Shown piece by piece: positions 49,016 through 58,241 of a stretch of 64,000 nucleotides of DNA. This stretch comes from Aliiroseovarius sp. S1123 (GTDB taxonomy: Bacteria; Pseudomonadota; Alphaproteobacteria; Rhodobacterales; Rhodobacteraceae): NCBI RefSeq assembly GCF_023015885.1, contig NZ_JALKBE010000006.1, forward strand, positions 124,001 to 188,000. Reading direction: 5' to 3'. Positions within the stretch are counted from its first letter, which is position 1. Each line of letters starts with the position of its first letter. Position numbers and translations under genes: made by a program. The notes below the pieces were generated by a model. That model was not told where the DNA came from, did no database searches, and saw only the letters and a list, made by a program, of their open reading frames with translations.

Positions 49016-50227
49016 TTAGAACTCGACCGGGCCGTCCAGTTCGTGGACCTGCCACGGCAGGCCGTGGTCGTTCAGCATGTCCATGAAGTTGTCGGGGTCC
49101 AGCTGCTCCATGTTCCAGACGCCGGGTTCGACCCAGTTGCCTTTCAGAACCTGCGCCGCGCCGATCATGGCGGGAACGCCGGTGGTGTAGGACACAGCCT
49201 GCGACCCAACCTCGGCGTAGCACTCTTCGTGGTCGCAGATGTTGTAGATGTAGAAGGTCTTTTCACCCGAGCCGTCCTTGGCCTGACCGGTCGCAATGTC
49301 GCCAATGCAGGCCTTGCCCTTCGTTTCGGCACCCAGATCGCCGGGATCGGGCAGCAGGGTTTTCAGAAATTGGATCGGGATGATTTCCTGACCGTCATGC
49401 ATCACCGGATCAATCCGGGTCATGCCGACATTTTCCAGCACCTTGGCGTGCATGATATAGGCGTCACCGAAGGTCATCCAGAAGCGCGCGCGCTCGATCT
49501 CGGGGAAGTGGGTCGACAGGCTCTCCAGCTCCTCGTGATACATCAGGTACATGTTCTTGTTGCCGATCGCCGGAAAGTCGAACTCGACCTTGGTGGTCAT
49601 GGCCGGGCTGGTCTTCCATTCGCCACCTTCCCAGTGGCGCACCTCGGCCAGCACTTCGCGCAGGTTGATTTCCGGGTTGAAGTTGGTGGCAAACTCCTGA
49701 TCGTTCGAGCCGCCATTGGCGTCCAGAATGTCGATCTGGCGGATGGTGTCCAGCTTGTGCTTTTTCAGCCAGGTCGCAAAGACCGAGGTCACACCCGGAT
49801 CAAAGCCCGAGCCCAGAATGGCGGTCAGACCGGCTTCTTTGAAGCGCTCCTGATAGGCCCATTGCCAGTGATATTCGAACTTGGCCACGTCCTCGGGTTC
49901 ATAGTTCGCGGTGTCCAGATAGTGGCAGCCCGCCTCAAGACAGGCGTCCATCAGAACCAGATCCTGATAGGGCAGGGCGAGGTTCACAAGGATCTCGGCG
50001 CCGGTTTCGCGGATCAGCTTGACGGTGTCTTCGACCTTGTAAGCGTCCAGTTCGGCGGTCTTGATGTCCACGCCCACGCGCTCTTTCACGCTGGCGGCAA
50101 TGGCATCACATTTCGACTTGGTCCGGCTTGCCAGCGTGATCTCGGTGAAGATATCCGCGTTCATTGCCATTTTGTGCACAGCGGCATGGCTGACGCCACC
50201 GGCACCTACGACGAGTGTCTTTCCCAT
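49016..50227 (-). CDS. Carboxyspermidine (carboxynorspermidine) dehydrogenase
   Basis: Saccharopine-dehydrogenase-like enzyme that joins putrescine and aspartate semialdehyde with NADPH to give carboxyspermidine. The 403-residue product begins GKTLVVGAGGVSHAAVHKMA, a Rossmann nucleotide loop. Further conserved parts are NLALPYQDLVLMDACLEAG near 84, HYLDTANYE, GSGFDPGVTSVFATW near 140 and YTTGVPAMIGAAQVL near the end. The sequence alone could be Lys9-type saccharopine dehydrogenase; the neighbours speA, nspC and speB make the polyamine role almost certain. It ends 76 bases before nspC. Confidence 0.92.
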   Translation of the reverse strand: MGKTLVVGAGGVSHAAVHKMAMNADIFTEITLASRTKSKCDAIAASVKERVGVDIKTAELDAYKVEDTVKLIRETGAEILVNLALPYQDLVLMDACLEAGCHYLDTANYEPEDVAKFEYHWQWAYQERFKEAGLTAILGSGFDPGVTSVFATWLKKHKLDTIRQIDILDANGGSNDQEFATNFNPEINLREVLAEVRHWEGGEWKTSPAMTTKVEFDFPAIGNKNMYLMYHEELESLSTHFPEIERARFWMTFGDAYIMHAKVLENVGMTRIDPVMHDGQEIIPIQFLKTLLPDPGDLGAETKGKACIGDIATGQAKDGSGEKTFYIYNICDHEECYAEVGSQAVSYTTGVPAMIGAAQVLKGNWVEPGVWNMEQLDPDNFMDMLNDHGLPWQVHELDGPVEF

Positions 50228-54573: not shown

Positions 54574-55260
54574 TCAGTCAAACCACGTGCCGTAGTCGCT
54601 GACCAGCAGATGCGTGGGGGCTTGGTCTTCCTCGATCTCGGCAAAGCGACCGATGGGTGCGCGAAAAATGTTGTCGGTCTCGTCGTCATTCACCGTCGAG
54701 ACTTCGCCAATCAGAACGTCGCCCCCTTCGCCCCAGAAGGCGTGCCAGTCGCCGGGCATCAGCGTCACACTTTCGCCGGGGGCGAGTTTCAGTTTCTCTC
54801 CGGCAGCAAAGTCGCGCCGGATCCCGTCGCAATAGACCGTGCCGCCACGATCCTCGGCGAAATTGCCATCATCATCCGAGCCATAAAGCTCGATCACCAG
54901 CGTCGCACCGCCCCGGTTGATGATGTCCTCGGCCTTGATGACATGGGTGTGCATCGGGCTAAGCTGATCCTGCCGCGAGATCAGCAGTTTCTCGGCATAA
55001 CACATGCCTCCGCCGCGCTGCAGATCGGTAAGCCGCCCGTTGCGCAGGGTGAACAGGAATAACCCCATTTCGTCAAATCGCCCATCGCCGTAATCCGTGA
55101 TGTCCCAGCCACAACGTGCGGTGATCACGTTTTGGGCTACGTCACGCTTGGCTTTGAATTCATCGGGCGTCCAATAGGCAAAGGGCGGCAAGACGAAGCC
55201 ATAGTGGCGGATCATCTCGTCCGCTTCCGCCATGATCTGGTTAATTCGAGAGCGTTTCAT
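54574..55260 (-). CDS. D-lyxose/D-mannose family sugar isomerase
   Basis: A 228-residue cupin-fold isomerase of the D-lyxose ketol-isomerase family, which interconverts D-lyxose with D-xylulose and often D-mannose with D-fructose. Metal-binding cupin residues are seen in SPMHTHVIKAEDIINRGG (near 105) and in LMPGDWHAFWGEGGD (near 170). It begins MKRSRINQIMAEADEMIRHY. Fructose made here could feed the adjacent fructokinase, a short mannose-to-fructose-6-phosphate route; that is inference. The start could also be a GTG at 55284, adding 8 residues. Confidence 0.85.
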   Translation of the reverse strand: MKRSRINQIMAEADEMIRHYGFVLPPFAYWTPDEFKAKRDVAQNVITARCGWDITDYGDGRFDEMGLFLFTLRNGRLTDLQRGGGMCYAEKLLISRQDQLSPMHTHVIKAEDIINRGGATLVIELYGSDDDGNFAEDRGGTVYCDGIRRDFAAGEKLKLAPGESVTLMPGDWHAFWGEGGDVLIGEVSTVNDDETDNIFRAPIGRFAEIEEDQAPTHLLVSDYGTWFD

Positions 55261-55416
55261 GCAAGGGTCCGTGTGAAGGGCCACCGCGCGGCGGCGACGA
55301 AGCTGTTAACTGACGAGCCCTGAATAGGGATTACTTCGCTAAGCGAGTCAAATGCCTATTTCGCGTCATCTCTACGAGGGCATCGCACGCAAGGATCGCA
55401 TGCGGGCTGGCAAGTC

Positions 55417-56138
55417 TTACCCGATCCTGCGCCCTTCGGACCACACCCCATGCAAGACCGGCGCATGTTCAAAGCGGGCGAACCGGATAAGGTCTGCGCG
55501 CTTGCCAATCGCAATCACACCCCGATCATCCAGCCCGACGGCCCGTGCGGGCGCGTGGGTGACGGTTCCCAAGCCGCGTGCGAGATCTCCCCACATGTCC
55601 CCCAGTTGAAGCGCGGCCAACATCAGGGACGAGGGCACGTAGTCCGATGACAGGATGTCCGAGAGGCCCAGTTCGGCCAGTTCTTCGGGCAGGGTTTCCG
55701 AACAAATCTCGGCGCGCAGATGCAGATGTGCGAGATCTTCAGCCCGCCCTTGGTGCGCAGGGTCAGGATTTCATCGGCAAGCGCACGGGCATATTTGCCA
55801 TAGTTCTTACGCCCGTCGGAATGGATCGAGCCCACCCGCAGCGCATCGTACACAGTGGTGGTCCCAACGGACGCAAGCTCGGCGTCATGGGCGACAATCG
55901 CCGCATCATGCGGCCAGTCCACCCGGGGGCGCGGACGGATGTGGCGCTCCAGATTGTCGGTGTGCAGCTCGACCAACCCCGGCGCGATGTAATCGCCACG
56001 GCAATCCTCTGCGCCCTGGGGCATGTGGGTGCCTGGCTCAATGTCGGTGATCTGGCCGTTGGTCACGGTCAAGGGACCGGTGATAACCTCGTTCTCCAGA
56101 ACAAGTTCGGCGTTGGCGAGGGTGAATGTCTGTGTCAT
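55417..56138 (-). pseudogene. phnM: phnM pseudogene (frameshift and central deletion)
   Basis: Remnant of the gene for alpha-D-ribose 1-methylphosphonate 5-triphosphate diphosphatase, a step of the C-P lyase pathway. The first 137 codons from 56138 encode a good PhnM N-terminus, including DYIAPGLVELHTDNLERH with metal-binding histidines. At about 55727 one base is missing (HH read as H) and the frame shifts. The shifted frame gives HLHLRAE, then jumps to a C-terminal part, LGLSDILSSDYVPSSLMLAAL, ending at 55417. About 240 codons remain of roughly 380, so the middle of the amidohydrolase barrel is gone. The remnant cannot encode an active enzyme. Confidence 0.88.
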
Positions 56139-56208
56139 CTGAATGTCACGCTTTACTGTCAGAGAAGGGCCGATTTTGGATAGCACAATCGGGCCGAAAG
56201 AGGGTGAA

Positions 56209-56910
56209 ATGCAGTTCAATCGCTATGCGATCTATTACACGGCGCCACAGGGGCCGTTGGCGGATTTCGGGGCCAGCTGGTTGGGATGGGACTTGGTTAC
56301 CGGTCGTGAGGTGCCCCACCAAACCCTGCCGGATTTGTCGCAGAACGAGATCGCAGAGATTACCCAGACCCCACGCAAATACGGGTTTCATGGCACCATC
56401 AAACCGCCCTTTCGTCTGGCCGACGGCTGCGACGCTGAAGGGCTTTTGCAGGCGTTTCAAAGTTCTGCACATCAGGTCGCCCCGGTCACGCTGGACGGCT
56501 TGAAACTGGCCCAGATCGGCCGGTTTCTGGCGCTGGTGGTCGACGGGGATCAGAGTGCTCTGGCGGGGTTGGCAGGGCGCATGGTGGCCGAGCTTGATCC
56601 GTTCCGCGCGCCTTCCGGTGACGAAGAGCTTGCCCGCCGCCGCGCAGCTAACCTGACGCCCAAGCAGGACGAGATGTTGGTGAAGTGGGGCTACCCTTAC
56701 GTCTTTGACGAGTTCAAATTCCACCTGACCCTGTCGGGCAAGCTGGACCCAAGCCGCGCCGCGCAGATTTGGGACGTGTTGGCGCCTCTGGTGGCCCCAA
56801 TCCTGCCGCGTCCGTTCAAGGTGCGCGATCTGACCCTTGTGGGGGAAGATGCGGATGGCCGGTTTCATGAGATTTCTCGCATTGCGCTGGGCGCAGCCGC
56901 GACGGCCTGA
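56209..56910 (+). CDS. DUF1045/phosphonate-operon protein, 2H-phosphoesterase-like
   Basis: A 233-residue cytoplasmic protein of the family found in phn operons (DUF1045). Two His-x-Thr motifs, FHGTIKPPF near residue 62 and FHLTLSGKL near 176, are arranged as in 2H phosphoesterases, which open cyclic phosphates. This suggests processing of a cyclic ribose phosphonate intermediate, but I know of no direct assay. The start at 56209 has AGGGTGAA. The frame is intact although neighbouring phnM, phnC and phnL are broken. Its last 46 bases overlap the end of phnN on the other strand. Confidence 0.85.
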   Translation: MQFNRYAIYYTAPQGPLADFGASWLGWDLVTGREVPHQTLPDLSQNEIAEITQTPRKYGFHGTIKPPFRLADGCDAEGLLQAFQSSAHQVAPVTLDGLKLAQIGRFLALVVDGDQSALAGLAGRMVAELDPFRAPSGDEELARRRAANLTPKQDEMLVKWGYPYVFDEFKFHLTLSGKLDPSRAAQIWDVLAPLVAPILPRPFKVRDLTLVGEDADGRFHEISRIALGAAATA

Positions 56911-57443
56911 TCGGCGAGCCGCGCAAGGATGGTTCGTACCGTCCCGTCCAGCGGGCCGTCATTCACCACGTTGATCACCGCCAGCCCGTCGGGCAGTTCC
57001 ACCTGCCGTGTGAGCCGCTTGGCGATGCTGTCCGCGCTTTCGCGCCCACGTGCGGCCAGACGTTGTGCCAGCACCTCGGGGTTTGCGCTCAGGTTCACCA
57101 CGATGAACCCGGGGAAGGCTATGTGGGCGTCCGTCAGCACCTTGCGCGACAGGTTGACCAGCGCATTGCGACCCTTATCCAGACAGGTCAGTTCGGTGTT
57201 CGGAATGCCATAGCGCAGGTCATGTGCAGGCCAGTGTAGCGCGAACCGGCCACAGGCCAGATCCGCGTCAAACGTGGCCGCGTCGCAGCCGTCAAACTGC
57301 TCGCCGCCCGCCGCATTGGGGTGGGTGATCACGCGCCGCACAAGGTGGAAATCGGCCGCCTTGGCTAGAGCCTCCATAACGCTATCCTTGCCGACGCCCT
57401 TGGGTCCGACAACGGCAATCGGTCGTCCGGGTGCGACAGCCAT
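56865..57443 (-). CDS. phnN: Ribose 1,5-bisphosphate phosphokinase PhnN
   Basis: Phosphorylates ribose 1,5-bisphosphate to PRPP, the last step of C-P lyase product recycling and a side route to PRPP. The 192-residue product has Walker A VVGPKGVGKDSVM at residues 11-23 and resembles guanylate kinases (RRVITHPNAAGGEQFDG near 37, FALHWPAHDLRYGIP near 67, VVNLSANPEVLAQRL). The frame is intact. Its ATG overlaps the stop of the broken phnL reading frame (TGATG), so translation would once have been coupled to phnL; now it must start without full translation of that gene. Confidence 0.9.
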   Translation of the reverse strand: MAVAPGRPIAVVGPKGVGKDSVMEALAKAADFHLVRRVITHPNAAGGEQFDGCDAATFDADLACGRFALHWPAHDLRYGIPNTELTCLDKGRNALVNLSRKVLTDAHIAFPGFIVVNLSANPEVLAQRLAARGRESADSIAKRLTRQVELPDGLAVINVVNDGPLDGTVRTILARLADQAVAAAPSAMREIS

Positions 57444-57797
57444 CAGGCATCCCCTTTCGGCGAGAATGTGGTCACATCCAAAACCCGGTCGCAGACCCGA
57501 TCACGTGCAGCCGCATCGTGGAAAATCCCCACGATTGCTGCGCCGCGCGCCTTAGTCTCTTCAATCAGGCACATAACCGCGAGCGATGTTCACACGCTGC
57601 TGTTCGCCACCTGAAAAGGTGGTCGGGCTGAGCGACCAGAGCCGTTCGGGAATGTTCAATGGCTCCAGAAGGGCGGCGGCCTTGTCCCGCTCGGCACCGG
57701 CGTCTTCACTCAGTGCCAGCATAGGCTCGGCCACTACGTCCAGCGTCGGCACGCGGGGCACAACGTGCAGGAATTGGCTGACATAGCCCAGCGCAGT
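57443..57797 (-). pseudogene. phnL: phnL pseudogene, 3' part with internal deletion
   Basis: Remnant of the C-P lyase ATP-binding subunit gene. From the junction at about 57797 one frame encodes [20 protein letters not shown] and, further on, [18 protein letters not shown], the ABC signature of PhnL. It then ends at a TGA (57561-57563). The final part, [20 protein letters not shown], is in another frame and runs to the TGA overlapping the phnN start. The missing piece holds the Walker B segment (about 25 residues). The 5' third of phnL, including Walker A, is replaced by phnC sequence. Confidence 0.85.
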
Positions 57798-58042
57798 GCA
57801 CCGCTTAGGCGCGTGATGTTCTTGTTCTTGTTCTGGAACAGGATCTGGCCTTCGGTGGGATCAGCCAGCCGATTGACCATCCGAAGCAGCGTTGATTTGC
57901 CCGCGCCAGAGGCGCCGATGATGCCGAACATGCAGGGGCGCTCGACCGAAATGGTCACGTTGTCCACCGCGCGCTTGTCGCCAAAAGCTTTGGTCAGGTT
58001 TGTAATCTGCAGCACTTCGCCCCCTTCGTTTCGAGGGGGCAT
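57797..58042 (-). pseudogene. phnC: phnC pseudogene, 5' part fused to phnL
   Basis: The first 80 or so codons of the phosphonate ABC transporter ATPase gene. They encode [20 protein letters not shown], Walker [12 protein letters not shown] and [19 protein letters not shown], where AAGAAC is repeated three times and has probably added two residues. Homology stops at SGALR (about 57797) and the DNA continues directly into phnL in a different frame. A single deletion between phnC and phnL, removing everything that lay between, explains this best. Confidence 0.85.
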
Positions 58043-58204
58043 TTAACAACAGCCATGTGTCGGCAATACAAAACTTCTGTAACGCAGCATCGCCGCGAAG
58101 GATTGCGAGCCTGCTTATAATCAGAGCGACGGTTTGCACATTTTCTAAGAAATATCGGTCGAAGGCAGCGGCGATGACAGTCGGGTCGCTGGCGTTCTGC
58201 CTTC

Positions 58205-58241
58205 TGCACACTTGATCGAAAACCCGTCTGGATGCACACTT
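58205..58241 (+). promoter_or_regulatory. Direct repeat upstream of the desaturase gene
   Basis: TGCACACTT occurs at 58205-58213 and 58233-58241, 28 bases apart (about 2.5 turns), ending 39 bases before the desaturase ATG. It may be a tandem binding site. The remaining 160 bases towards phnC show nothing I can name. Confidence 0.3.

Follow-up and report, generated by a model that had tools for sequence, protein, structure and literature searches.

The C-P lyase (phosphonate) locus of Aliiroseovarius sp. S1123 is most probably what is left of a complete cluster of the Rhodobacterales type that has entered recent and largely neutral decay, with phnN and the DUF1045 gene still open mainly through the short time elapsed and not through selection. 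One deletion of about 10.7 kb has removed the catalytic core together with the transporter, smaller deletions have broken phnM and phnL, and selection is probably holding neither of the two genes that can still be read. The evidence comprises the deletions themselves, the lack of PhnI, PhnJ and any intact PhnM, a parallel rise of dN/dS in the open genes and the broken pieces, and two changes at near-invariant residues of PhnN.

Organization of the phn remnants

The window analyzed here is a stretch of 64,000 nucleotides (G000:C18:124001-188000) from a draft genome of 3.23 Mb in 21 contigs, with an estimated completeness of 99.99%. The locus is flanked by genes for a D-lyxose isomerase (54574-55284) and a fatty-acid desaturase; profile scans (PRK15446, TIGR03223, TIGR02322, TIGR02324 and TIGR02315) identified two fragments of phnM and one each of phnL and phnC, along with DUF1045 and phnN genes that are both open. 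On the minus strand, alignment to the intact phnM of three congeners delimits a phnM 3' remnant (55417-55683), for which the ORF at 55417-55638 matches positions 306-378 of PRK15446, and a 5' remnant (55673-56146), for which the ORF at 55623-56219 matches positions 3-135. The DUF1045 gene (TIGR03223, 2H phosphoesterase-like) occupies 56209-56910 on the plus strand, with the ATG at 56209 as the likely start in an ORF that begins at 56143, and its end overlaps by 46 nt with phnN (56865-57443, minus strand). Beyond these are a phnL remnant (57446-57796, minus strand), which has lost its 5' part and in which 57561-57761 corresponds to TIGR02324 positions 102-166, and a phnC 5' remnant (57797-58042, minus strand), with the piece at 57734-58042 corresponding to TIGR02315 positions 1-68. 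Upstream of the latter, about 109 bp (58102-58210) take the place of the ~15 bp and ~13 bp found in G018 and G002, respectively; hence, the old phnC promoter region has been altered. Other than a tRNA-Phe, no RNA elements were found between positions 50000 and 64000 of the window.

Comparison with intact clusters of congeners

As references we used the congeners G018, G015 and G002, which have intact phn clusters (the phnC of G015 being taken from L064), in alignments at the DNA level. These clusters encode a C-P lyase with a DUF1045/RcsF-type 2H gene in lieu of phnP, and run in the order phnC, phnD, phnE, phnE, a hexapeptide-transferase-like gene, a divergent second phnM, phnF, phnG-H-I-J-K-L-N, DUF1045 on the opposite strand and phnM. 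The pieces remaining in the window retain this order, and the locus is at the same site as in G018, with matching flanks on both sides; however, the window lacks the core, phnF, the transporter and the second phnM, and its phnM, phnL and phnC are broken. Relative to the congeners, phnM has lost a single base near 55728 and a segment of 423 bp (a multiple of three), the junction of which falls at 55673-55683 with an ambiguity of about 11 bp in overlapping alignments to L039, L040 and L041. Similarly, phnL has lost 74 bp near 57570-57579, while phnC shows a 6-bp in-frame insertion. The largest loss, of about 10.7 kb (L039 8493-19202), extends from the 5' part of phnL to the 3' part of phnC, with the junction at 57794-57796 joining L039 positions 8492 and 19203; with it have gone the core genes, the transporter, phnF, the second divergent phnM and the hexapeptide-transferase-like gene. 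In the intact Aliiroseovarius clusters this second phnM is found beside phnF (at L039:13511-14608, and correspondingly in L040 and L041). A comparison with named genomes also groups the host with Aliiroseovarius: in DUF1045 the window is 89% identical to each of the two closest records, which are A. marinus A6024 and the uncultured Aliiroseovarius sp. 3-1481.

A genome-wide profile search, which the first-pass annotation of this DNA had suggested as a check for a further C-P lyase copy, found none for PhnI, PhnJ and PhnM: there is no match to PF05861 (PhnI) or PF06007 (PhnJ) anywhere in the host genome, and no intact PhnM, with only the two broken pieces exceeding the level of other amidohydrolases. 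Thus, the genome has neither the PhnI and PhnJ nor the intact PhnM by which we recognize a functional C-P lyase. At the locus itself PhnG, PhnH, PhnK, PhnD and PhnE are also absent, in agreement with the annotation's statement that phnG-phnK, phnD and phnE are missing. The alignment to intact clusters that it proposed, with the losses mapped on G018, G015 and G002, likewise bears out its description of a frameshifted phnM without its middle, which corresponds to the 1-bp and 423-bp deletions. Its truncated phnC and phnL are also seen in the alignments, but the fusion it envisaged is not, because the two pieces abut in different frames and do not form one fused protein.

The PhnN and DUF1045 proteins

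The annotation further held that phnN and the DUF1045 gene keep full frames and motifs. Both frames are indeed open, and the HxT motifs of DUF1045 are retained; in PhnN, however, two near-invariant residues are changed. Against 35 other distinct PhnN sequences, out of the 210 family genomes with PhnN, the P-loop change S15K falls at a position that is serine in all 34 compared sequences having a letter there, and R41H at one that is arginine in 34 of 35 (lysine in G309). The K15 and H41 codons are each two bases away from those of the intact congeners. With two deviations at conserved columns the protein is still within the range of the other sequences (0 to 5), and its TIGR02322 score of 150.8 bits is just below the curated cut-off of 156, as is that of some PhnN proteins from PhnJ-positive genomes (151 to 153). 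A sequence search against solved structures retrieved guanylate kinases and one adenylate kinase for PhnN, and by analogy with guanylate kinase, its closest solved relative in sequence, we take sites 15 and 41 to be likely phosphate-contacting residues. Judging from these residues, PhnN of the window has probably lost its activity.

The DUF1045 ORF (56143-56910) scores 260.4 bits with TIGR03223, above the curated cut-off of 248.95. Its motifs read HGT and HLT, with all four defining residues present in 47 of 48 compared sequences (the second motif of G027 being HxS), and it shows no change at 44 conserved columns. A sequence search against solved structures returned nothing credible for DUF1045. 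The protein may still be active as a cyclic phosphodiesterase.

Selection on the open genes and the broken pieces

In four-taxon codon models, run on a weak topology (bootstrap 64 and 51) and with the phnL and phnC columns trimmed by a few codons at their edges, the joint dN/dS of the two open genes rises from 0.103 in the relatives to 0.243 on the host branch (p=0.004). Taken singly, DUF1045 goes from 0.103 to 0.256 (p=0.028), and the rise in phnN has p=0.072. The broken pieces jointly show a rise from 0.047 to 0.138 (p=0.002), which is seen singly in phnM (p=0.019) and phnL (p=0.049) and is absent from the phnC piece (p=0.74); the flanking desaturase gene shows no significant change (0.066 vs 0.094, p=0.43). 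Hence, the rise is about equal in open genes and broken pieces, with modest statistical power.

We also fitted a model that treats the final portion of the host branch as neutral. For the broken pieces the best neutral share is 8% of the branch, and shares between roughly 2% and slightly less than 20% lie within 1.9 log units; this result and the complete cluster that congeners have at this site support the earlier proposal that C-P lyase was lost recently. For the open genes the best share is 16%. If their share is held at 10%, neutrality beats unchanged selection by 4.2 log units (3.2 at 6% and 4.7 at 16%), and at shares up to 10% the fit improves slightly further with a value above 1.

The rise is less pronounced in three-taxon models: it is 1.8-fold for the open genes (p=0.061), with p=0.12 for DUF1045 alone and p=0.32 for phnN alone, and 2.45-fold for the broken pieces (p=0.016). 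Among 40 local control genes in the same three taxa, which are 46 genes minus the two kept ones and minus four ORFs with a background dN/dS above 1 that are probably in the wrong frame, the median (taken by eye over the 40 rows) is 1.05, and eight reach 1.80. Accordingly, the evidence for relaxed selection on phnN and DUF1045 in the host is moderate, because the three-taxon rise is weaker and a fifth of the controls reach the same level; nothing indicates that the two genes are specially protected.

The open frames themselves are unsurprising because so short a time has passed since decay began. With a neutral share of 8%, phnN and DUF1045 should have received about 23 neutral changes, and the chance that none creates a stop is 0.60. 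Three frame or length changes have hit the broken parts, setting apart the large deletion and the 6-bp in-frame phnC insertion, and two simple reckonings put the chance that none of the three hits the open genes at 0.12 or 0.20. The products of the two chances are 0.07 and 0.12. The open frames are thus no strong evidence for function.

Stand-alone phnN-DUF1045 pairs in the family

The distribution of these genes was surveyed in 394 genomes of the family drawn from a larger group, with PhnN counted at E-values up to 1e-20. PhnN is present in 210, PhnJ in 200 and both in 196, leaving 14 genomes with PhnN and no PhnJ and four with the reverse; DUF1045 is found in 274, of which 80 have no PhnJ. 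The 194 PhnJ-negative genomes comprise 11 with PhnN and DUF1045, three with PhnN only, 69 with DUF1045 only and 111 with neither (p=0.004, Fisher's exact test uncorrected for kinship). Within the genus (21 genomes), DUF1045 occurs in seven and PhnJ in five, with the two extra cases being G001 and the genome of the window.

Gene neighborhoods were viewed in 11 of the 14 PhnN-positive, PhnJ-negative genomes (all but G122, G187 and G225), the genome of the window being one of them. The pair stands alone in G027 and G309. In G391 it is accompanied by a phnL scrap, with a PhnM-like match below the cut-off elsewhere in the genome, while in G432, which has no PhnJ, phnN is beside phnM. In G159 and G190 the locus runs into the end of a contig, and the missing PhnJ may therefore reflect an assembly gap. 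G399 has a reduced set of phnM, DUF1045, phnN and phnF, all open, in a genome without PhnJ (L057:7323-10609), and G452 has another decaying cluster with a phnJ scrap near open phnN, DUF1045 and phnM genes plus phnF (L059:8644-11697). In G038, G060 and G035 (L044, L046 and L049), the genomes of which have neither PhnJ nor PhnN, DUF1045 is beside an intact-looking phnM, with G035 also having phnF.

The stand-alone pairs of the congener G001 (L037:9010-10247), G027 (L038:8079-9313) and G309 (L055:8490-9823) are convergent and overlapping or adjacent, and genome searches recovered in these three neither PhnJ nor a PhnM that stands out from other amidohydrolases. The pair of the window resembles them in being convergent and without C-P lyase. 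However, they have no phn scraps alongside, whereas the window has remnants of phnM, phnL and phnC; moreover, all three retain the P-loop serine of PhnN and two the arginine (lysine in G309), in contrast to S15K and R41H of the window. On the G001 branch, where synonymous changes are near saturation and time before its C-P lyase loss is included, the pair has a dN/dS of 0.110 (DUF1045 0.151, phnN 0.059), against 0.108 for the background and 0.246 on the branch of the window. The PhnN of G309 has five deviations at conserved columns, the most of all compared, which argues against regarding that copy as fully constrained. The literature passages that we searched contain no report of stand-alone phnN-DUF1045 pairs.

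A possible role for the pair

C-P bond cleavage yields 5-phosphoribosyl 1,2-cyclic phosphate, which PhnP converts to ribose 1,5-bisphosphate and PhnN in turn to PRPP (PMC3463581, PMC10574752), with the ribose 1,5-bisphosphokinase activity being known for E. coli PhnN (PMC3463581). For clusters without phnP, a 2H protein has been proposed as the replacement, and hydrolysis of phosphoribosyl 1,2-cyclic phosphate by DUF1045 is likewise published as a proposal (PMC3840354, PMC10574752, PMC8235418). A Phaeobacter strain has a putative C-P lyase DUF1045 protein among its tabulated phosphate-stress proteins (PMC10132767). Given these last steps, the pair could perform both without C-P lyase if there were another source of the cyclic phosphate or of ribose bisphosphate. 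The cyclic phosphoribosyl compound could also arise from the breakdown of PRPP. It is conceivable, albeit tentatively, that in some Rhodobacterales phnN and DUF1045 constitute a minimal C-P-lyase-independent module leading from the cyclic phosphate via ribose 1,5-bisphosphate to PRPP, salvaging damaged PRPP or ribose bisphosphate derived from nucleotides; once C-P lyase is lost, the module would sometimes be kept, as in G001, G027 and G309, and sometimes decay, as in the window.

A source of ribose 1,5-bisphosphate separate from phosphonates is the archaeal NMP phosphorylase (PMC9700705), and a similar NMP (AMP) phosphorylase route could supply PhnN. In G217 (L060:8938-11064, adjoining nadC) and G294 (L061:6742-8937), PhnN is fused to an NMP/thymidine-phosphorylase-like domain (TIGR02322 + NF003338); going by the domain names, the fusions would join PhnN to its possible source, which suggests a bifunctional route from nucleotides via ribose 1,5-bisphosphate to PRPP. 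In contrast, the genome of the window has only a lower-scoring, thymidine-phosphorylase-like match (196.6 bits, with the cut-off at 434.6). Across the 394 family genomes, NMP phosphorylase (E up to 1e-90) is found in 23: the two with fusions, which are PhnN-positive and PhnJ-negative, 12 with PhnJ and nine with neither. As a general reason for PhnN without PhnJ it is unsupported (2 of 14, p=0.19, Fisher's exact test uncorrected for kinship). In G001 a separate NMP-phosphorylase gene (L086:7923-10363) adjoins a ribose-phosphate diphosphokinase gene and not phnN.

Discussion

The first-pass annotation had supposed that the two surviving genes are selected for another job. In its strongest form this would mean that the pair is maintained in S1123 as a two-step salvage, with DUF1045 opening 5-phosphoribosyl 1,2-cyclic phosphate to ribose 1,5-bisphosphate and PhnN making PRPP from it. 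The open frames, the DUF1045 protein undamaged at conserved columns, the pairs without PhnJ and PhnM in three other genomes and the above-expectation co-occurrence of PhnN and DUF1045 in PhnJ-negative genomes are in its favor; yet the pair resembles the broken pieces in its dN/dS on the host branch, and PhnN carries S15K and R41H, making us regard this explanation as unlikely. We consider it rather less likely still that DUF1045 alone is kept for a job needing neither PhnN nor C-P lyase: the 69 family genomes (of 394) that have DUF1045 but neither PhnJ nor PhnN, and its undamaged state in the window, would fit, but its own dN/dS also rose on the host branch (0.103 to 0.256, p=0.028) and there is no sign here of another substrate. 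An intact cluster in the living organism, with the breaks arising from errors of assembly, is very improbable: the genome is a draft in 21 contigs, but PhnI and PhnJ are missing from the entire assembly despite its near-complete estimate, and the junctions sit inside a contig.

Recent, largely neutral decay therefore remains our preferred reading, and from it we infer that PhnN activity has been lost and that no function remains for the pair in the host. Thus, for this genome the supposition of another job is not supported: the dN/dS of phnN and DUF1045, which was to be measured as a check on it, leans against a kept function with modest power, PhnN is altered and the open frames are explicable by chance. 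As a general idea it fares better, given the stand-alone pairs of G001, G027 and G309 and the undiminished constraint on the G001 branch. A PRPP-salvage role for such pairs outside the host is a plausible and testable hypothesis, while in the host genome we judge that no such role would remain.

The locus thus clearly illustrates the way in which such a cluster is lost, with the core and transporter going in one deletion while the accessory genes drift, and cautions that an open frame need not mean a kept function. If the stand-alone pairs do make PRPP, they would provide an assayable substrate for the uncharacterized DUF1045 family and would point to a bacterial use of ribose 1,5-bisphosphate that is separate from phosphonates.
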